Shown here: piece after piece, positions 11,006 to 19,670 of the stretch
How positions within the stretch are numbered: the first letter of the stretch is position 1
How the letters are laid out: every line of letters starts with the position of its first letter
Assembly: GCA_030602715.1 (NCBI GenBank)
Contig: JAUVZD010000001.1
Coordinates: forward strand, 186,001 to 250,000
Length of the DNA stretch: 64,000 nt
Origin: Candidatus Coatesiibacteriota bacterium
GTDB taxonomy: Bacteria; RBG-13-66-14; B26-G2; JAUVZD01
Direction: 5' to 3'
Program-made: the position numbers and the translations under genes
Notes under the pieces: model-generated
The model's database searches: none
What the model was told of the DNA's origin: nothing
Seen by the model: the letters and a program-made list of their open reading frames with translations, nothing else

Positions 11006-11034
11006 TTGATTTCAGGGAATATATGGGTTAAAAT
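11006..11034 (+). promoter_or_regulatory. Predicted promoter of the microcompartment-type operon
   Basis: TTGATT and TAAAAT are separated by 17 bp, with a predicted start at about 11041. That leaves a leader of about 12 nt that contains the AAGGGGG ribosome-binding site of the first gene. Confidence 0.6.
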
Positions 11035-11052
11035 CACAGCAAGGGGGTATAG

Positions 11053-11382
11053 ATGAAACTCGGCAGGGTTATAGGCACCGTGGTCTCCACGGTCAAGGAT
11101 GAGAGTTTGGGAGGGCTGAAACTGCTAATAGTCGCCCTCTGCGATCTATATGGTAAGGAGGACCTAACCGACCAGCTGGTGGCTGTGGATGCGGTCGGTG
11201 CGGGGATGAATGAGGTGGTATTGGTGGCTTCCGGCTCCTCCGCCCGCCAGACCGAAATGACCAAGAACAAACCGGTGGATGCGGTCATTATGGGCATCGT
11301 GGACTCTCTGGAGGTGGGCGGGAAGTTCACCTTCCTCAAGACCCCTCAAAAGGTCACCCAAAAAACGGGGAAAAGGGGATAG
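11053..11382 (+). CDS. BMC vertex (pentamer) protein, EutN/CcmL family, copy 1
   Basis: The 109-residue product matches Pfam EutN_CcmL (BMC-P). It starts MKLGRVIGTVVSTVK, continues through GGLKLLIVALCDL, VAVDAVGAGMNEVVLVASGS and the SAR...PVDAVIMGIVDSLEV signature. In characterised systems such proteins form pentamers that cap the vertices of bacterial microcompartments. AAGGGGG precedes the ATG. The C-terminal tail is basic and somewhat longer than usual. It is the first of three non-identical paralogues within 1.8 kb, so three distinct pentamers are encoded together. Confidence 0.95.
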   Translation: MKLGRVIGTVVSTVKDESLGGLKLLIVALCDLYGKEDLTDQLVAVDAVGAGMNEVVLVASGSSARQTEMTKNKPVDAVIMGIVDSLEVGGKFTFLKTPQKVTQKTGKRG

Positions 11383-11384
11383 TT

Positions 11385-11681
11385 ATGGAACTGGGCAGAG
11401 TAATCGGCACTGTGGTAGCCACCTGCAAATACCCCACTCTGAAGGGGTTGAAACTGCTCATCCTCCAGCCGTTGGACGAAGAGCTCTCCCCCCTCGGTGA
11501 GCCGATAGTTGTCGCCGACACCGTCCGGGCCGGTCGGGGTAGTATCGTCCTTTGGGTGCGCAGCAGGGAGGCGACTCTCGCCCTGCCCGATCCTCAAAGC
11601 CCGGTGGATGCCTCCATAGTGGGCATCGTAGATTCGGTTGACCTGGCTCCCCCAAAAGCCAGAAGGAAGGAGATGAAGTAG
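11385..11681 (+). CDS. BMC vertex (pentamer) protein, EutN/CcmL family, copy 2
   Basis: A 98-residue EutN/CcmL protein, starting 2 bp after copy 1 with GGGGAT as ribosome-binding site. Conserved elements are MELGRVIGTVVATCK, LKGLKLLILQPLDE, VVADTVRAGRGSIVLWVRSREA and SPVDASIVGIVDSVDL. It differs from copy 1 at most positions outside the core. It has a ...SREATLAL... loop in place of ...SSARQTE.... The stop codon is followed directly by the ATG of the secreted GH114-like gene. This implies coupled translation and a single transcript. Confidence 0.95.
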   Translation: MELGRVIGTVVATCKYPTLKGLKLLILQPLDEELSPLGEPIVVADTVRAGRGSIVLWVRSREATLALPDPQSPVDASIVGIVDSVDLAPPKARRKEMK

Positions 11682-12485
11682 ATGCGTGCCGGGTTGCTTC
11701 TATTGTTATTCATACTTGCCCTTTCCAACATCGCTTTCGCCGAGCTTCCCGACATTGAGGGTTGGGTGTGGCTGGATTACCGCAGTCCCACCGCCCCTCT
11801 GCTGGAGGCTGAGCAGCAGTTGGTGGTTCTGGACCCGGACAACTACCTCTCAGGCGAGGTGGAGACCCTGAAACAAGCCGGTCATATCGTGCTTGCCTAT
11901 CTGTGCATAGGGGAGGCGGAATCCTGGCGTGCTTATTGGCACAAGATAAGCTGGGAGTCGTGGGTAGTTGGTCCCTCCTCCCGGCGCAGTGGCAGTTACC
12001 TCATCCGCTTTTACAGCGCCTACACCTGGGCCGGGGTGCTGAAGGACTACGTTGAGGACATCATTGAGTTTGGCTATCAGGGACTCTTTTTGGACCCGGC
12101 GTATGCCCTGAGTTACTACCCGGACAAAGCCGAGGATATGGCGGACCTGGTGCAGGAGATAGCCGAGGAGGCAAGATATGATGACCCCGACGCCTATGTG
12201 GTCCTCTTTAGCGGTGGTGAGCTGTTGGAGTATTCCCAGATAGTAATGGAGATAGACGGACTTGCCGAGGAGGGGGTGTGGTGGGACAGCGACTGGCTTC
12301 GTTCAAGTGCGGTGGACACCATGCTCCGTAAGGACTATCTTATCCAGGCTCGGGGTCTCGGCATCACCCCCCTGGTGATGGAATACGCCGACGGCGATGC
12401 GGCGATAATTGAGGTGGAGACCCTGGCGGATGGTGAGGGCTTCATCCCCTTCTTCGTGCCCAAGGAATGGGGGAAATACTGGTGA
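11682..12485 (+). CDS. Secreted GH114/TM1410-like putative glycoside hydrolase
   Basis: The 267-residue product starts with a signal peptide (LLLLLFILALSNIAFA) and is otherwise one TIM-barrel-like domain of the endo-alpha-1,4-polygalactosaminidase-like (GH114/TM1410) family. LVVLDPDNYLSGEVETLKQA, IVLAYLCIGEAESWR, GLFLDPAY and TPLVMEYADGD are typical strand ends; the Asp and Glu in LDPAY and CIGEAE are candidate catalytic residues. It is exported, yet it sits between two shell genes with no intergenic gap on either side (TAG-ATG before it, GTGA overlap after it). The family has activity on galactosamine polymers in the few tested members; the substrate here is unknown. It may feed the pathway housed by the encoded compartment. 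Confidence 0.8.
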   Translation: MRAGLLLLLFILALSNIAFAELPDIEGWVWLDYRSPTAPLLEAEQQLVVLDPDNYLSGEVETLKQAGHIVLAYLCIGEAESWRAYWHKISWESWVVGPSSRRSGSYLIRFYSAYTWAGVLKDYVEDIIEFGYQGLFLDPAYALSYYPDKAEDMADLVQEIAEEARYDDPDAYVVLFSGGELLEYSQIVMEIDGLAEEGVWWDSDWLRSSAVDTMLRKDYLIQARGLGITPLVMEYADGDAAIIEVETLADGEGFIPFFVPKEWGKYW

Positions 12486-12805
12486 AGCTAGGACGGGTAA
12501 TCGGCAGTATCGTCTCCACCCTCAAAAGCGAATCCTTCAAAGGTGCCAAGTTGTTGCTGGTGGAAAGGATTGACCTGCAGGGAAAACGCAGTGCATCTCC
12601 AGTGGTGGCAATAGACCGGGTTGATGCCGGACCTGAAGACCTGGTTCTACTCATAGACGAGGGCAACTCCGTCCGTCAGCTACTGCAGGACGAGCGTGTT
12701 CCCGCCCGCACCCTGGTCATCGGGGTGATAGACCATTTTGATTTGGGGGAGGATTTCCTGTCTCAGCTTCCGGGGAAAGCCCCCAGAAAGGTTAAGAAGA
12801 GTTAA
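12482..12805 (+). CDS. BMC vertex (pentamer) protein, EutN/CcmL family, copy 3
   Basis: A 107-residue EutN/CcmL protein. I start it at a GTG (12482) that overlaps the preceding stop as GTGA. This gives the N-terminus MKLGRVIGSIVSTLK, matching copy 1; an in-frame ATG at 12467 would add five atypical residues. Core motifs are FKGAKLLLVERIDL, VVAIDRVDAGPEDLVLLIDEG and RTLVIGVIDHFDL. The region before the last strand reads VPARTLVIG where copies 1 and 2 have PVDA.. , so its pore or packing edge may differ. The C-terminus is basic. Confidence 0.94.
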   Translation: MKLGRVIGSIVSTLKSESFKGAKLLLVERIDLQGKRSASPVVAIDRVDAGPEDLVLLIDEGNSVRQLLQDERVPARTLVIGVIDHFDLGEDFLSQLPGKAPRKVKKS

Positions 12806-12822
12806 TAAGGAGAGTGGGTGCC

Positions 12823-13620
12823 TTGGTTAGCACCACCAAACTACGTCAGGATATTGTGGAGATAGGAAGGAGGGTCTATGCCCGCGGCTTTGTGGCATCA
12901 AACGATGGCAACCTCTCCATCAGGGTCTCCAAAAATCGCATATTGATCACCCCCGCCGGCGTATCCAAGGGCTTCCTCTCCCCCGACGATATCATCCTCT
13001 GCGACATGGAGGGGGGAAAGGTGGAGGGGGAAAGCGATCCCTCTTCGGAGATCAAACTTCACCTGGAGGTCTATCTGAAGCGCCCGGACATCTTTGCCGT
13101 GGTCCACGCCCACCCCCCATACGCCACCGGCTTTGCGGTAGCCGGCGTTCCCCTCACCGAGTGCATCCTGCCGGAGGTGGTCATATCCATCGGTCGCATC
13201 CCCCTAGCCCCCTACGCCACCCCCTCAACTGCGGAGCTGGCAGGGACCGTATCCCCTTACCTTCCTCGTCACAACGCCTTACTACTTTCAAATCACGGCA
13301 CCCTGACCATAGGTGAGGACATCTATGAGGCTTACTATCTTCTGGAACGAGTGGAGCATCTGGCAAGGGTCTCCCTGCTCGCCCGGCAGCTGGGTGGGCC
13401 TCGCAAGCTGAGCGATGAAGAGCTCTCCGCCCTGGCAGAGCTAAGTCCTCAAATGACCGAGGAGGCTCTCAACGACAGTCGCTGTGCCAACTGCGGGGTC
13501 TGCGGAAAACCAGTGGATGGCGATTCGGCTGAGTCTGCGAGCGAGGAGACCTCAGATTTGGTGGCACAGATAACCGAGGAGATCCTGAAAAGGATAAACA
13601 AAACGGAGACTGCAGAATAA
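12823..13620 (+). CDS. Class II aldolase (fuculose-phosphate aldolase-like), candidate microcompartment cargo
   Basis: Residues 1-200 form a class II aldolase/adducin domain: SNDGNLSIRV, the zinc ligands His95 and His97 in VVHAHPPYATGF and His158 in LLSNHGT, and Glu76 in the catalytic position. Enzymes of this family cleave fuculose- or rhamnulose-phosphate into dihydroxyacetone phosphate and lactaldehyde. An unusual tail follows. It has Cys211, Cys214 and Cys217 (CANCGVC), an acidic Ser/Glu linker, and a short amphipathic helix at 235-249 (DLVAQITEEILKRIN) that looks like a microcompartment encapsulation peptide. AAGGAG lies 10 nt before the TTG at 12823, while the GTG at 12814 is too close to it. 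It is the last gene of the shell operon, so it is the likely cargo. Confidence 0.88.
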   Translation: MVSTTKLRQDIVEIGRRVYARGFVASNDGNLSIRVSKNRILITPAGVSKGFLSPDDIILCDMEGGKVEGESDPSSEIKLHLEVYLKRPDIFAVVHAHPPYATGFAVAGVPLTECILPEVVISIGRIPLAPYATPSTAELAGTVSPYLPRHNALLLSNHGTLTIGEDIYEAYYLLERVEHLARVSLLARQLGGPRKLSDEELSALAELSPQMTEEALNDSRCANCGVCGKPVDGDSAESASEETSDLVAQITEEILKRINKTETAE

Positions 13621-13639
13621 ACCGTCTTAAAAAAAGGGT

Positions 13640-13674
13640 AAAAAATGGGCGCCGTCCGGCGCCCTCAATTTTTG
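13640..13674. terminator. Bidirectional intrinsic terminator between the aldolase gene and sprA
   Basis: GGGCGCC and GGCGCCC (13647-13653, 13658-13664) form a 7-bp stem with a 4-nt loop. TCAATTTTT follows on the plus strand and ATTTTTTA on the minus strand, so the same hairpin can end both convergent transcripts. Confidence 0.88.
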
Positions 13675-13688
13675 CCCATTAATCTCGT

Positions 13689-16600
13689 TTAGAAAACCGC
13701 CTCTGCAGTTCCGTAGAAGGAGATGGTGGAATAGTCCCGTCCGGCTTGGGTCAGATTATGGTATTTGGTATAGGCGGTGGTGATGGTCAGGTGCAGGTTG
13801 GTGGTGATGTAGTAGCCGGCGGAGATGGACACATCCCAGCGGTTGTAGGAATCGTCGGCGGAATTCTCCGTCCTGGTGCGGGTGTAGCTTATCTGCCCCT
13901 GAAAATTGAGCTCATTTCGGAAGCGGAATATCTTGCCCAGAACGGGGATATTTATGCCGTGGGGCATCTTCAAGTCGTAGTTTATGGTGATGGAGGGATT
14001 CAGGGTGGTCTCTTTGCGCACCTCGCCGAAGTCAAACTCCTTGGTGGTCATGTTGATGTAGTCCAAGTCAAAACGGGTGCGGAAGGTATCCGACCAACTT
14101 GCCCGCCAGCTGAAGCGGGGGTTGTGGCTTACCGATTGAGAGATGCCGAAGGCGTTTATCTTCCTCTTGCGGTATCCCACCACCACTGTGGAGCGAAGCA
14201 GCATATCCGAAAAGACGGGGAAGTTCTTGGTGCCGTCTATGCGCACATCTATATCCGGGAAGGTAACCGCGCGGGACCTGGAGGTGGAGCCGGTGGTGGA
14301 CACGGTCTCGTGAGCCAGAGAGAGGGCAAAGGTGGTGCTTACGCAATCCCAGTTGGAATACTGTGAACCGTGCCTTTTTGCCAGGAACTGTAAGGGACGA
14401 AACTTGTTGGAAACACCAAAGGAGTGGCGGATGCGAGAGGTCTTGGGGGTGAGCCCCTCAATCTGTGAATCAACGCCGGTGCGAAAGCGGATATCGGGTC
14501 GCTCGTCCACACCATCAAACCTGGAGGAGCGGGTGAGCGAATATGTGGGGGCTATGGAGAGGGAGCTGAAGAACGATTTATCACTGCCGATCAGCCGACC
14601 TATGTCTATCGGTGCCGAGGTGGTGATGGTGGTATTGTTGGAGACATTCAACTTGTCAGTCCCCTCCACGACATCCTCACTATAAGTGGAGCTGTAGGAG
14701 ACTGTGGGTCTGACTCCCTGCTTGCGAGAGAAGCTCAACTGCAGGCTGTAGCCCTCGCTATAATAATCCTCCACATCCAGAATGCGGTCCCAACTGAGCC
14801 GGTAGCTGAATCCGGGGCGGATCTCAAACGACTTAATGGGCTCAAAGCGCATAGAGGTGCTCAGACTGTCGGTTACCAGATTCTTATCGGGGTCGGTCAC
14901 CACCTCGCTGGTGTAGGTGGTTCGGCTTATTGAGCGCTTGAAATTGGCGGTCACATTGGTGGGCATGACCGGGAACCTCAATGGAATATCGTATCCAACA
15001 GTGCCGCTGTAGGTGTTGGTGCGGGAGATACGACTATAGCGGTCGTAGTCCGAACGGGACTGAGAATAGCCGAGCGAAAGGCTGGGCAACATCTTCCGTT
15101 TGAAGCTCCAATCCACTTTCTTGGTCAGGCTGATGATGGTGCCGTAGTCATAGATGCTGCTTTGGGGGTCGTAGCGGTCCTCTGTAAATGTCACCGATTT
15201 GGTCCAACTTCCGGTGAGGGGCATGGTCACATTCCATTTCAGGGGCATAAACTTGTTCAGATGGAGTGTGCTGTGAACCTCTTTGGTGTTCTCCCTCTGC
15301 TTGGACCTCGCTAAAGTTCCGATGGATTGGAAGTCGCCGTCAACATCACGATAGTAACCACCGACGGAAATCAGGTCGGCAAAATCCAGGACAACCTTGA
15401 AGCGCCGTGCCCAGCCTTCCTCCCGGTCGGCACCCTCCAGCAGAATATCGTTTATCCACACCTCCCCCGGTTCCTTGCAGATCATGGGGTCGGTAGTCCT
15501 CACCCCCACAATCAACTCCACTATATTTATTAACTGCGGGGTTCCTTTAATACGATAGTTGCCTTCAGTGATAGTTTGATTATCAGCTAATTCTTGAGCA
15601 TACCGTCCTTGAAGCTCCAAAAAATGGAAAATGTCCGCAGAAGCCAGCTTCCAGCCGGAGGGGGCTTCTGTATCCTGAGGGGCATCTTCCACCTTAATAA
15701 AATATTCATAGTAGTTGTCATTATCCGAGCCGAAACGAAGGAAGAATATCTCGTTATTATGCTCGCTCTCAGCCTGATAGACGCGGACGGTAATCCGATG
15801 ATACTGTGTATAATCATCCGGCAGATATTGGTTGACATATTTAGTGTAAGCCTCTATATGGTCCTCGCTGTCCAGCACCCCGTTGCCCTCTCCGGTTCCC
15901 GGCCAGCCCCAGCCGATATCCTCACCGGGGTCCAGGATGCCGTTGTGGTTTGCATCCTCGGTGTTGAGTATGCCGTCGCCCGCTCCATCCCCTATGCCCA
16001 ATACCTGGTCTAAGGTCATACCGCTCTCCGCCAACTTCCGCTTGGCAGCTTCGGGGTCGGTTAGTTGTGAGGTTAGATAGGAGAGGGACATCCCCTCATC
16101 ATCCCCCTGCCAGCCAATATCCTCCCAGTTGGAGAGGATATATTTCAAGGAGATGGCAGATTCCTTTTTGAGGTTATTGTCCACATCGTATTCCTCTTTG
16201 ATGGGCACATAACGGTCGTCGTTACGGTTGCTGATGTCCTCAATGACCGCCCAGTTGTTGCCCAGCACCGGGTCCACCAGAGCGTCATACCAGCGGTTGC
16301 CCACAGGAGCGATGTTGGCGATGTAGATATAATCGTTGGAGTGGAAATCGCCATCGTATTCAGCCTCAAACCAGACCCGGATGTGTTTTATCTTGGTGGG
16401 GTCAGGGGTGCCGATTGAACCCTCATCGCTGGGGGACTCCATCTCCAGAGGAAAGCGGATGGTGAGCCATCCGGTCCATTTACCGTAAGCGTCCTCCATC
16501 CGCCGGGTTACATATTCCGGAGGGTTATCCGAGACCGCCTCATCAATATCAATGGCGTAGGTAAAATAGTTATTGGAGGTGTCCAAAACGGTATTCTGGT

Positions 16601-19600
16601 TCAAGTCCTCGGTGTCCAATACATCATTGTCCGCTCCGATGATCACATCTATATAGCCGTTGTTGAATTGCCAGCCGTCGTCCTCGTCCAGACCTAACTT
16701 GCCGTCCTGGTCCTCATCCTCGGTATCCAGATAGGAGTCGCTATCAGCATCCTCGCTTATCTCCCCCAGGTCAATGTGCATCAGACCGCCGGCATCCTGG
16801 GGGAATTTCACCAACAATTCCAGGTATTTATAGCGTTTCTCCTGAAAATCCATTCCCTGCACGGAGATATTGCGCATGATACCCCCCCAGCCTTCGTTAT
16901 CATCGGGGTCTGTAGGAAGACCGCTAATCTGCAGAGTCCACACATAGTCATTTGCAAGGTTGTCGTCAATGGTGTATTCCAATATCTTGAGCTCGCCGAC
17001 ATCAAGCAGGACCCTATCCTCCTCATCATGTCCGTCATCGTTGATCGGGAGGCTTGATGGCATCCATGCTTTCTCGCGCATGGGCAACCCGATGGTTAAC
17101 TTGTTCCCCTCCATATCGTCCACCTTAGCCTTATCAACGATATTGGGGTTGAGATAACTGCGCGCCACCTCCGCCTCCACGGTCAGGTTAGATGGCTGGA
17201 GGGTGCGCACCAGAGGGACCGTGTCAGCCATCATGGTCATGAAATCCGGATGGAGCACCAGCCTCAAATCCGCATCAACCACATTCTGAATCGTCGGCGC
17301 CCCTTCAATGGTTGGTATCTCACCTCGTGCCGGTTTGGAGGTCCATTCCCCGATGAATGTCGCCCCGATATGTGACTCCATATTCAGCTCCAGTTCAGTG
17401 CGGACGCCGGCCAGGGTCTTGGACAGCTCGGCGAAGAAGGGGCGATACTCGTAGGTTATCTCAATTCTGGCATCGGGGTCGTTTATGGCATCGGTGAAGA
17501 ATTCTAAAAAGCCGGAGTCATAGTCTATCCAGTAATCCTGGTCCCTTATCTGTAGGACGCCGTTTATCTTCACCGTCTCCGAGCCGGGGATTATGTTGGG
17601 TTTGAGGATATATGAGGGGCGAACGGCGTTAAATTCAACATAAAAATAATATCTGTGGTCGGAATCATCGGGTTGATAGGCGTCGGGTCCCTCCACCCAG
17701 CCGTTTCCGTTAAAATCAAAGGGGAGGCGACCATCAATGCTGTCATCGGGGAACATCAGCAAGCCGAACTCGTAATCTATGAACTGTGAATCAATGCCGG
17801 GGATGTCGTCGTTGTCCAATCCGAATTTCTGCAGATAGGTCTTACCGGTCGCCTGGTCTATCTCCCCACCATTGGTATCATATAGTTTGAGCAAAAAAGT
17901 CTGACTCTGTATGTTCTGCCCGCCGAGATAATAAACATTGTAGTGCTTATACTGCTGGTAGAACCCCCCCAGACCCTCCACCTGCAGGAGCTTCATATCT
18001 GAATAGACGATGTTGTCGTTGTCGTCATATCCCACCGAATAGAGCAGGTCGTTGTTTTCGTCGGCAACCTGATAAGCCACCGCCAGCACATGGTTCTGTT
18101 CCAAGCTGGACTTGAGGGAGATTGCACCGCTCTCCACATTCACCGTGTAATCGGTGTTTAGATATAGTTTCTGGAAGTAGTCGCTCGCAACAGAATATTC
18201 GTCGGGACCGGGTTCGGGATAATCCGTCCCCTGACCGGTATAGTGCACCTCGCCTGAGCCCCAACCATCAACATCGTAGTAAGCATAGGCGGTTATGGGA
18301 TACTGGGTGACCCCATCAATATTTCCAAGACCGGGGTAGTAGAAGAGCTCCAAAAAGGGATTCCCGCCGGCATCGGTGCGTATCTTGTGGTCGCTGAAGA
18401 AAATGTATTCCGAATTGGTGCGGAAGTAACGGCGACGGGAGTAAACGGTGTCATTTATGCGCTGGGAGGTGAACTCGCTGGAACCGATAAAATTCTCCGT
18501 CTCCACCTTACCCTTCTCCCGGCTGGCGATGGTCATGAAGCGAAGACGACCCACCTTCAAATCCACCTTTCCCCCGAAGACCGATTTGCTTGAGCCGTAG
18601 CTGACGAATTCGGTTGAGGGCATGGAGAGAGCGATGTCGCCAAAGGCTGCCTCCTGAACCACCTCGTCCGGGTCGCCCTTATAGACCACAGATATACGGT
18701 TGCGGTTCTCGTTCTCTCGGGTGTCGTCGTAGTCTATGTTTACCATGGTCTTGCGGGCGATGGTCCCCTCCACCCGAAGCTGTAGCTCCTGGTCCATCTT
18801 GATGTCGCTTCCCGCAATATCCTCTCCGTAACCATATTCGGGGTAGTTTTGCTTGGTATAACCCATGGAGATCATCTTCCGACCGGAGACCTTCAACTCC
18901 GATTCTCCGGGCAGTTCAATATCCGGCACCAATCCCGTCTCCCGCTCCATGGAGATCAACTCGTGTTCTTTAGCCACCTCCTCGGTCAATTCATACCAAA
19001 CCTTATAGTCAAACTTCTCCAAATACAGAAAATCGTTTATGGCAACCCAGTAGCTCTGCGAGAGAGACCGCTTTTCCGGATAGGTCAGATAACGGTCCAG
19101 GGCACCAAAAAAGCCGAGAAAGCCCAGTCGCAGTTTGAGGTCATACTCCTCACCGCTCTCGGTTGGAGGGACATAGACCCGGTCGTAGCGACCGGTGTAT
19201 GCCCACAGGATGGGGTCAAAGCGGAAGGGAACGACGGTAACTTCCTCACCCTCCTGGTCAGCCTCCTCAGTGGCTTCCTGAGCGTCTTCCTCCGCCTCCG
19301 ATTCGTCCTCACCAGCCTCTCCGCCCTCCTCGGAAGGGGACCCCTCATCGGGCGGGGGTTCCTCCTCGCTCTTTAACTGCAGGGGCAATTGTTGGCTGGG
19401 GGGTGTCTCATCAAATAGCTGAAAGTTGATTTTTTGCGTGGGGGGGCTGGAAGGAGGACATGGAGGAGGAGTCATGGATGGTTGGAGGGAGATGTCCTGA
19501 GGGTTCTGGAGATTCTCGCTGGATTCAGACCAGTTTGGGGGAATAATGATAGCTGAGTCAGGTTCAAGCCTTCCCCGGTACCCTTCGTAGTTACCGTCTT

Positions 19601-19670
19601 CAATTTTACTAGCCGCCACTCCGATGATCAGGACAAGGGACAGAGCGGCTACGATACCCCATGGTCGCAT
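13689..19670 (-). CDS. sprA: SprA-type outer-membrane protein translocon (T9SS SprA family)
   Basis: This 1993-residue protein has a signal peptide and a Pro/Glu-rich segment (residues about 50-155) before its beta-rich body. Diagnostic SprA features are the early SVVYKGDPDEVVQEAAFGDI, LSMPSTEF and SVFGGKVDLKVGRLRF run, and the middle KAKVDDMEGNKLTIGL motif. A long C-terminal series of beta-strands ends in an aromatic residue (TAEAVF), as in an outer-membrane barrel. In Bacteroidetes, SprA/Sov forms the 36-strand type IX secretion channel. This one is shorter than those (often over 2300). Two Asp-rich, calcium-loop-like segments lie at about residues 970-1020 and 1225-1275. AAGGAT precedes the ATG. 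PorV-like and sorting-domain genes occur at 55-58 kb. Confidence 0.9.
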   Translation of the reverse strand: MRPWGIVAALSLVLIIGVAASKIEDGNYEGYRGRLEPDSAIIIPPNWSESSENLQNPQDISLQPSMTPPPCPPSSPPTQKINFQLFDETPPSQQLPLQLKSEEEPPPDEGSPSEEGGEAGEDESEAEEDAQEATEEADQEGEEVTVVPFRFDPILWAYTGRYDRVYVPPTESGEEYDLKLRLGFLGFFGALDRYLTYPEKRSLSQSYWVAINDFLYLEKFDYKVWYELTEEVAKEHELISMERETGLVPDIELPGESELKVSGRKMISMGYTKQNYPEYGYGEDIAGSDIKMDQELQLRVEGTIARKTMVNIDYDDTRENENRNRISVVYKGDPDEVVQEAAFGDIALSMPSTEFVSYGSSKSVFGGKVDLKVGRLRFMTIASREKGKVETENFIGSSEFTSQRINDTVYSRRRYFRTNSEYIFFSDHKIRTDAGGNPFLELFYYPGLGNIDGVTQYPITAYAYYDVDGWGSGEVHYTGQGTDYPEPGPDEYSVASDYFQKLYLNTDYTVNVESGAISLKSSLEQNHVLAVAYQVADENNDLLYSVGYDDNDNIVYSDMKLLQVEGLGGFYQQYKHYNVYYLGGQNIQSQTFLLKLYDTNGGEIDQATGKTYLQKFGLDNDDIPGIDSQFIDYEFGLLMFPDDSIDGRLPFDFNGNGWVEGPDAYQPDDSDHRYYFYVEFNAVRPSYILKPNIIPGSETVKINGVLQIRDQDYWIDYDSGFLEFFTDAINDPDARIEITYEYRPFFAELSKTLAGVRTELELNMESHIGATFIGEWTSKPARGEIPTIEGAPTIQNVVDADLRLVLHPDFMTMMADTVPLVRTLQPSNLTVEAEVARSYLNPNIVDKAKVDDMEGNKLTIGLPMREKAWMPSSLPINDDGHDEEDRVLLDVGELKILEYTIDDNLANDYVWTLQISGLPTDPDDNEGWGGIMRNISVQGMDFQEKRYKYLELLVKFPQDAGGLMHIDLGEISEDADSDSYLDTEDEDQDGKLGLDEDDGWQFNNGYIDVIIGADNDVLDTEDLNQNTVLDTSNNYFTYAIDIDEAVSDNPPEYVTRRMEDAYGKWTGWLTIRFPLEMESPSDEGSIGTPDPTKIKHIRVWFEAEYDGDFHSNDYIYIANIAPVGNRWYDALVDPVLGNNWAVIEDISNRNDDRYVPIKEEYDVDNNLKKESAISLKYILSNWEDIGWQGDDEGMSLSYLTSQLTDPEAAKRKLAESGMTLDQVLGIGDGAGDGILNTEDANHNGILDPGEDIGWGWPGTGEGNGVLDSEDHIEAYTKYVNQYLPDDYTQYHRITVRVYQAESEHNNEIFFLRFGSDNDNYYEYFIKVEDAPQDTEAPSGWKLASADIFHFLELQGRYAQELADNQTITEGNYRIKGTPQLINIVELIVGVRTTDPMICKEPGEVWINDILLEGADREEGWARRFKVVLDFADLISVGGYYRDVDGDFQSIGTLARSKQRENTKEVHSTLHLNKFMPLKWNVTMPLTGSWTKSVTFTEDRYDPQSSIYDYGTIISLTKKVDWSFKRKMLPSLSLGYSQSRSDYDRYSRISRTNTYSGTVGYDIPLRFPVMPTNVTANFKRSISRTTYTSEVVTDPDKNLVTDSLSTSMRFEPIKSFEIRPGFSYRLSWDRILDVEDYYSEGYSLQLSFSRKQGVRPTVSYSSTYSEDVVEGTDKLNVSNNTTITTSAPIDIGRLIGSDKSFFSSLSIAPTYSLTRSSRFDGVDERPDIRFRTGVDSQIEGLTPKTSRIRHSFGVSNKFRPLQFLAKRHGSQYSNWDCVSTTFALSLAHETVSTTGSTSRSRAVTFPDIDVRIDGTKNFPVFSDMLLRSTVVVGYRKRKINAFGISQSVSHNPRFSWRASWSDTFRTRFDLDYINMTTKEFDFGEVRKETTLNPSITINYDLKMPHGINIPVLGKIFRFRNELNFQGQISYTRTRTENSADDSYNRWDVSISAGYYITTNLHLTITTAYTKYHNLTQAGRDYSTISFYGTAEAVF

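Follow-up and report, generated by a model that had tools for sequence, protein, structure and literature searches.

Why should a bacterium keep genes for the vertices of a microcompartment shell where no gene for the tiles is found? The question is raised by five genes in the window, by which we mean the whole 64,000-nucleotide stretch analysed here (bases 186001-250000 of contig 3, C3), from a Candidatus Coatesiibacteriota bacterium with a genome of 2.31 Mb (completeness 100, contamination 0.78). They encode three bacterial microcompartment (BMC) vertex proteins (BMC-P, EutN/CcmL pentamers), a secreted hydrolase-like protein and a class II aldolase. The sequence-only reading of the window had left a choice between a satellite locus, with the main compartment genes elsewhere, and pentamers that need no hexamers. 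The rest of the genome speaks for the former, with hexamer (BMC-H) and trimer (BMC-T) tiles, an aldehyde dehydrogenase (AldDH), PduL and PduS/RnfC encoded 111 kb upstream and no other vertex genes; the latter is not supported for this genome, given that it encodes tiles (PF00936). Since one operon has the only tile genes of the genome and the other its only vertex genes, we read the two as the halves of one class-II-aldolase metabolosome, with a probability of about 0.88.

The vertex operon and the distant tile operon

The five open reading frames (ORFs) lie head-to-tail on the plus strand: vtx1 (11053-11382, 109 aa), vtx2 (11385-11681, 98 aa), the hydrolase gene (11682-12485, 267 aa), vtx3 (12482-12805, 107 aa) and the gene for a FucA/DrdA-like sugar-phosphate aldolase (to 13620, from a GTG at 12814 or a TTG at 12823). 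They are joined by 2 nt, 0 nt, a 4-nt start/stop overlap (GTGA) and 8 or 17 nt. The start of vtx3 is most likely the GTG at 12482, within the overlap with the stop of the hydrolase gene, because this is the start that aligns with the MKLGRVIG of the vertex paralogues. The gene identities proposed earlier hold: the three vertex proteins cover the PF03319 profile at full length with 99, 98 and 80 bits (cut-off 25), the aldolase reaches 169 bits with PF00596 (cut-off 22) and the hydrolase-like protein 37.7 bits with PF03537 (cut-off 27). After a linker, the aldolase ends in a predicted amphipathic helix (about residues 247-263, helical moment 0.53, from the alignment); this conserved C-terminal helix is consistent with the suggestion that the enzyme is a cargo, and encapsulation-type tails are present on several related aldolases too. 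Amphipathic character is less clear in the tails of the AldDH and PduL.

A genome-wide profile search with PF00936 gave exactly three domains, one in a BMC-H and two in a tandem BMC-T, at C3:81869-82096 and C3:85457-85966 and nowhere else, while PF03319 gave exactly three genes, all in the vertex operon. PduL was matched at C3:82269-82781. The tiles are upstream on the same contig, 111,057 bp from the vertex operon, and every genomic match to BMC-H, BMC-T or PduL falls outside the window, in which its reader had seen no tile or phosphotransacylase gene. A duplicate of a complete BMC locus elsewhere was considered and rejected, the genome having no further PF03319 genes. The tile operon (locus L007) reads, in order, PPIC-type isomerase, AldDH, BMC-H, PduL, TrmO-like protein, RnfC/PduS-like protein, CAP-domain protein, BMC-T, small radical SAM protein and a 97-aa protein. 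Its acylating AldDH (L007:8267-9784) resembles TIGR02518, the acetaldehyde dehydrogenase family, at 602.7 bits against a cut-off of 620.1, and its PduL-type phosphotransacylase (L007:10179-11030) scores 188 bits with PF06130. The genome thus has what marks a metabolosome, PF00936 together with PF03319 and an acylating AldDH and PduL next to BMC-H. In the sense of Axen 2014, where a satellite locus has only PF03319 or only PF00936 and the genome another BMC locus, the vertex operon is a satellite with its tiles 111 kb off; neither half has both shell kinds, so there is no 'main' locus under the 2021 definition.

If the two halves work together, the pentamers would cap a shell of distantly encoded hexamers and trimers, and the aldolase, recruited to the lumen through its C-terminal helix, would cleave a ketose-1-phosphate to dihydroxyacetone phosphate (DHAP) and an aldehyde. 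The AldDH and PduL would turn this aldehyde into acyl-CoA and acyl-phosphate, from which ATP can be made, with the RnfC/PduS-like protein recycling reducing power. One point tells against joining the halves: a 12-mer comparison found no 12-bp promoter word common to the vertex and tile operons. With the halves joined, the paradox of vertices without tiles is removed at genome scale, and the genes of a whole compartment can be divided between two loci, neither of which has both kinds of shell gene.

Single-locus counterparts in other phyla

An aldolase profile scan of named genomes returned 80 loci, in most of which the aldolase adjoins vertex genes, on contigs of sufficient length usually together with BMC-H, AldDH and PduL. 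Such loci occur in Planctomycetota, Latescibacterota, Gemmatimonadota, Acidobacteriota and Chloroflexota. Writing P1 to P3 for the three vertex genes, one Chloroflexota locus (L108) has the order BMCH-P1-AldDH-RnfC-BMCT-P2-P3-ald, another, from Anaerolineales (L131), DeoC-P1-P2-P3-ald-P-BMCH, and a Latescibacterota locus PduL-BMCH-BMCH-P1-AldDH-P2-P3-ald. In a BMC-P tree of 74 vertex proteins, vtx1, vtx2 and vtx3 fall into three old, separate lineages common to the complete aldolase loci, with support of 98/87 for vtx1 among the proteins of the phylum and 98/80 when other phyla are included, 98/93 for vtx3 and 80/87 at the weak fork of vtx2. A BMC-P triplet with one member from each of three major BMC-P clades has been described (Sutter et al. 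2021, PMC8217296), and by sequence the three vertex proteins are this triplet, the vtx2 fork being its weak point. Since the same triplet and aldolase stand with tiles in single loci of Chloroflexota, Latescibacterota and Planctomycetota, the vertex operon is best understood as the outcome of a split in a single-locus aldolase compartment.

Among the published types, PVM (Planctomycetota, Verrucomicrobiota) shares with our genome the P2-P3-aldolase order, orthologous vertex proteins and the combination of class II aldolase and BMC-P triplet; however, PVM is one locus with two BMC-H genes, whereas the source genome is split and has no FGGY kinase to feed the aldolase. The ACI type of Acidobacteria also combines a PF00596 aldolase carrying a C-terminal encapsulation peptide with a BMC-P triplet, and has its AldDH on a satellite locus (PMC8217296), but its BMC-H sits with the triplet, which in our genome has no tile gene beside it; our two halves also showed no hydroxyacid dehydrogenase. 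In the HO type I satellite locus, vertex genes and aldolase are likewise split from the main locus (PMC8217296), with two BMC-P instead of three and in a different phylum. The FRAG type, in which most genes are remote from known enzymes and which is found in many candidate phyla (PMC8217296), has scattered shell genes and a BMC-P triplet like the source genome; unlike in FRAG, the triplet here accompanies a signature aldolase and the tiles accompany an AldDH-PduL-PduS core, so that the pathway can be read. What we describe is most probably a split but otherwise conventional metabolosome, an organelle of known kind with its genes divided in two; the more interesting point is its fuel, which may be a new one.

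The substrate of the aldolase

The presence of candidate pathways in the genome was tested family by family. We tentatively favour, at somewhat below even odds, 5-deoxyribulose-1-phosphate (giving acetaldehyde) and/or methylthioribulose-1-phosphate as the ketose, rather than fuculose- or rhamnulose-1-phosphate. It would be made from 5'-deoxyadenosine or 5'-methylthioadenosine (MTA) by MTA phosphorylase and MtnA, as in the DHAP shunt. MTA phosphorylase (TIGR01694, 331 bits) and MtnA (TIGR00512, 450 bits against 279) both score above the curated cut-offs, and with the PF00596 aldolase the whole gene set of the shunt is in the genome. The compartment aldolase is the only PF00596 protein detected by the genome profile search, hence there is no MtnB; with no second such enzyme, it is the sole obvious consumer of the ketose-1-phosphate of MtnA, which is our main argument for a role in the DHAP shunt. 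The AldDH also points this way: besides its nearness to the acetaldehyde dehydrogenase family, it shares 49% identity with the AldDH of the DeoC-containing locus L131, against 28-31% with those of four other class-II-aldolase BMC loci (L108, L111, L115, L116). In the published shunt, or 5-deoxyribose salvage (MtnP or MtnK, MtnA/DrdI, Ald2/DrdA), the genes are clustered and there is no compartment (PMC6079011); our genome has the same complement of MTA phosphorylase, MtnA and one FucA/DrdA-family aldolase, but dispersed, and with a predicted compartment tag on the aldolase.

The substrate is supported by a BMC locus in the metagenome-assembled genome of an uncultured Clostridiaceae (L111:868-13364, CAMJGD010000024.1), where genes for methylthioribose (MTR) kinase (442 bits, cut-off 275), MtnA (432 bits, cut-off 279), a DeoR-like regulator, a tagged aldolase and AldDH stand together with four BMC-H, PduL, BMC-P, BMC-T and an ABC transporter (sugar-type by eye). 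This locus is a candidate 5-deoxyribose/methylthioribose compartment. In Bacillus and Paenibacillus (L120, L123), mtnA directly precedes a relative of the window aldolase, and the chemistry of the shunt was shown with purified Bacillus enzymes (PMC6079011). A wider proposal, which we advance with slightly less assurance than the ketose itself, is a microcompartment centred on the DHAP shunt, whose shell would contain the toxic aldehyde derived from 5'-deoxyadenosine and MTA, both by-products of S-adenosylmethionine, and which would be encoded in two operons in Coatesbacteria and in one locus in the Clostridiaceae genome. It would give a concrete substrate candidate to one of the aldolase compartments, most of which have no assigned fuel, and, if true, would mean that compartments handle by-products of radical SAM enzymes and of polyamine synthesis, a role on which we found no paper. 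In the literature searched, no paper tied compartments to the DHAP shunt; one mentions a gene for MTR kinase next to a pdu cluster and regards it as unrelated.

Several observations weigh against this substrate. The mtnA gene overlaps deoB (phosphopentomutase; L189:1357-3586), the pair is conserved from the source genome to all six relatives labelled G001 to G006, and MtnA is kept in one of these (G005) in which neither aldolase nor tiles were found, so MtnA may serve something else. DeoC, encoded at C3:6982-7593, away from both halves, could be a source of acetaldehyde. By sequence comparison with structures in the PDB, the window aldolase is slightly nearer to a FucA (114.7 bits) than to DrdA (106.5 bits), and the backbone of the aldolase tree is unresolved, such that the tree does not settle the substrate.

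The mtnA-deoB pair and the presence of DeoC would suit the degradation of nucleoside pentoses, in which MtnA would act on ribose-1-phosphate and the aldolase would cleave ribulose-1-phosphate to DHAP and glycolaldehyde, or DeoC would supply acetaldehyde, as in the SPU type; we consider this unlikely, if still worth weighing. The aldolase resembles the model of the haloarchaeal ribulose-1-phosphate aldolase, with 121.6 bits, though it does not reach the cut-off. In the SPU6/EUT3-like Anaerolineales locus L131, DeoC stands directly before the vertex triplet and aldolase, whose order is that of our operon, and no compartment AldDH found in other phyla is closer to ours than that of L131. However, L131 has its tiles in the same locus (and a EutA-like ORF, read by eye only), whereas in our genome the DeoC gene lies outside the BMC loci where an SPU type would have it, far from both operons, and its product has no obvious encapsulation tail. 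MtnA, moreover, scores as an MTR-1-phosphate isomerase equivalog. RpiB (PF02502) was not among the Pfam-matched genes of either half, with no dedicated PF02502 search made.

A split metabolosome on L-fuculose- or L-rhamnulose-1-phosphate with encapsulated lactaldehyde, the function experimentally established for PVM according to PMC4207490, would accord with the FucA family of the aldolase and with the gene order common to PVM loci, but appears improbable. FGGY kinases (PF00370; the fuculokinase/rhamnulokinase family) were absent from the source genome and from 12 of the 14 Coatesbacteria genomes in all by profile search, and so were found in two, against 12 with the aldolase; it is this absence that makes fucose or rhamnose an unlikely fuel. 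The AldDH also differs in type from those of the related single-locus class-II-aldolase compartments compared, with 28-31% identity to those of L108, L111, L115 and L116.

Coatesbacteria relatives and accessory genes

The split metabolosome was followed through 13 further Candidatus Coatesbacteria genomes, 14 with the source. Tiles, PduL and aldolase are in all nine genomes that are at least 90% complete (the source included), and the aldolase is in 12 of the 14. The earlier idea of a conserved five-gene unit stands as far as one relative, G001, from another family of the same order, in which the order vtx1-vtx2-GH114-vtx3-aldolase is identical (aldolase 63%, vertex 1 72% and GH114-like protein 31% identity); it does not extend further, this being one of the 13 relatives searched. 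In family f3 of the class (G002, G003, G004, G006), the aldolase is about 5 kb from the vertex triplet and a fourth vertex gene is near the tiles; about 21 kb separates the aldolase gene from the tile genes on the G006 chromosome. Family f5 was found to have the aldolase, the vertices and the tiles on separate contigs.

That the pentamers have a hexamer-free role, such as a scaffold around the aldolase, would find its best case in G005 (a single 2.6 Mb contig), where three vertex genes are followed by those of STAS/TPR proteins (L076:9892-12924) and no BMC-H, BMC-T, PduL or aldolase was found at a completeness of 89%. However, the source genome encodes tiles, and since the G005 assembly is rated 89% complete and the two ends of its contig gave no clean join, a tile locus may be missing from it; we therefore do not take G005 as a closed vertex-only genome, and hold a hexamer-free role to be very improbable. 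Equally remote is a relic, in which the vertex genes would be left over from a decayed compartment, as the dispersal of the genes, in f5 over separate contigs, might suggest, for in the source genome all genes are intact, operon spacing is tight and every core part is present, and order and coding integrity are kept in the other family at the identities given above.

A STAS-TPR protein gene also follows the vertex triplet in class relatives (L077:6454-8175; L076:10753-12288), G002 being the f3 case examined, and its product is a possible new partner of the vertex genes. CP070633 carries an aldolase identical to the one in G006. Two loci titled Candidatus Zixiibacteriota (L109, WVWN01000059.1; L130, JAUWLW010000015.1) have aldolases that match those of Coatesbacteria relatives exactly or nearly so, that of L130 equalling G003, and these titles may be misassigned.

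The hydrolase has a signal-peptide-like N-terminus and, as in GH114/GH191 endo-galactosaminidases, combines a match to the TIM-barrel family PF03537 with an aligned Asp/Glu pair, D138/E197, corresponding to the catalytic residues Asp156/Glu225 of TmGH191 (TM1410; PDB 2aam/9eux; PMC12054363); with TIGR01370 it falls short of the cut-off (72.5 against 181.25 bits). Among the compartment loci examined, this gene is confined to the order of the host, which led us to reject it as a conserved compartment part; we infer a lineage-specific secreted passenger that is no part of the shell. In the tile operon, a CAP-domain gene (L007:12879-13406) overlaps the start of BMC-T and, among the loci examined, was otherwise seen only beside BMC-T in G001. 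To judge from their distribution, the GH114-like and CAP-domain genes look like order-specific insertions. A TrmO-like gene (L007:11027-11509) lies between PduL and RnfC here and not in G001. The 97-aa protein that ends the tile operon (L007:14797-15090) has no Pfam or NCBIfam match and an encapsulation-peptide-like C-terminus, DEARLAEVVQEVIRRLKERG. Directly upstream of the BMC AldDH is a glycine cleavage operon (gcvT-H-PA-PB, lipoate ligase-like) with the PPIC isomerase (L007:2215-8231); glycine cleavage genes and a PPIC isomerase also stand directly upstream of it in G002 and G006 (L078, L079), gcvT being seen in the source genome only, with L078 and L079 truncated at their ends.

A single transcript for the five vertex-operon genes had been proposed and, because of the tight gene spacing (gaps of at most 17 nt, or overlaps), remains likely, while the signals called in its favour carry less weight. 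The promoter-like site TTGATT-17-TAAAAT at 11006-11034 on the plus strand matches 9 of 12 consensus positions, and the three such sites in the region are not above the 1.6 +/- 1.2 expected by chance. Terminator-like sites are also at chance (4 found, 3.9 expected); the hairpin at 13647-13664 on the plus strand has seven G-C pairs and folds better than shuffled sequences (z = -3.2). This hairpin is common to the vertex operon and a convergent gene at 13689-19670 of the window, which encodes a 1993-aa SprA/Sov-type translocon protein of the type IX secretion system (T9SS).

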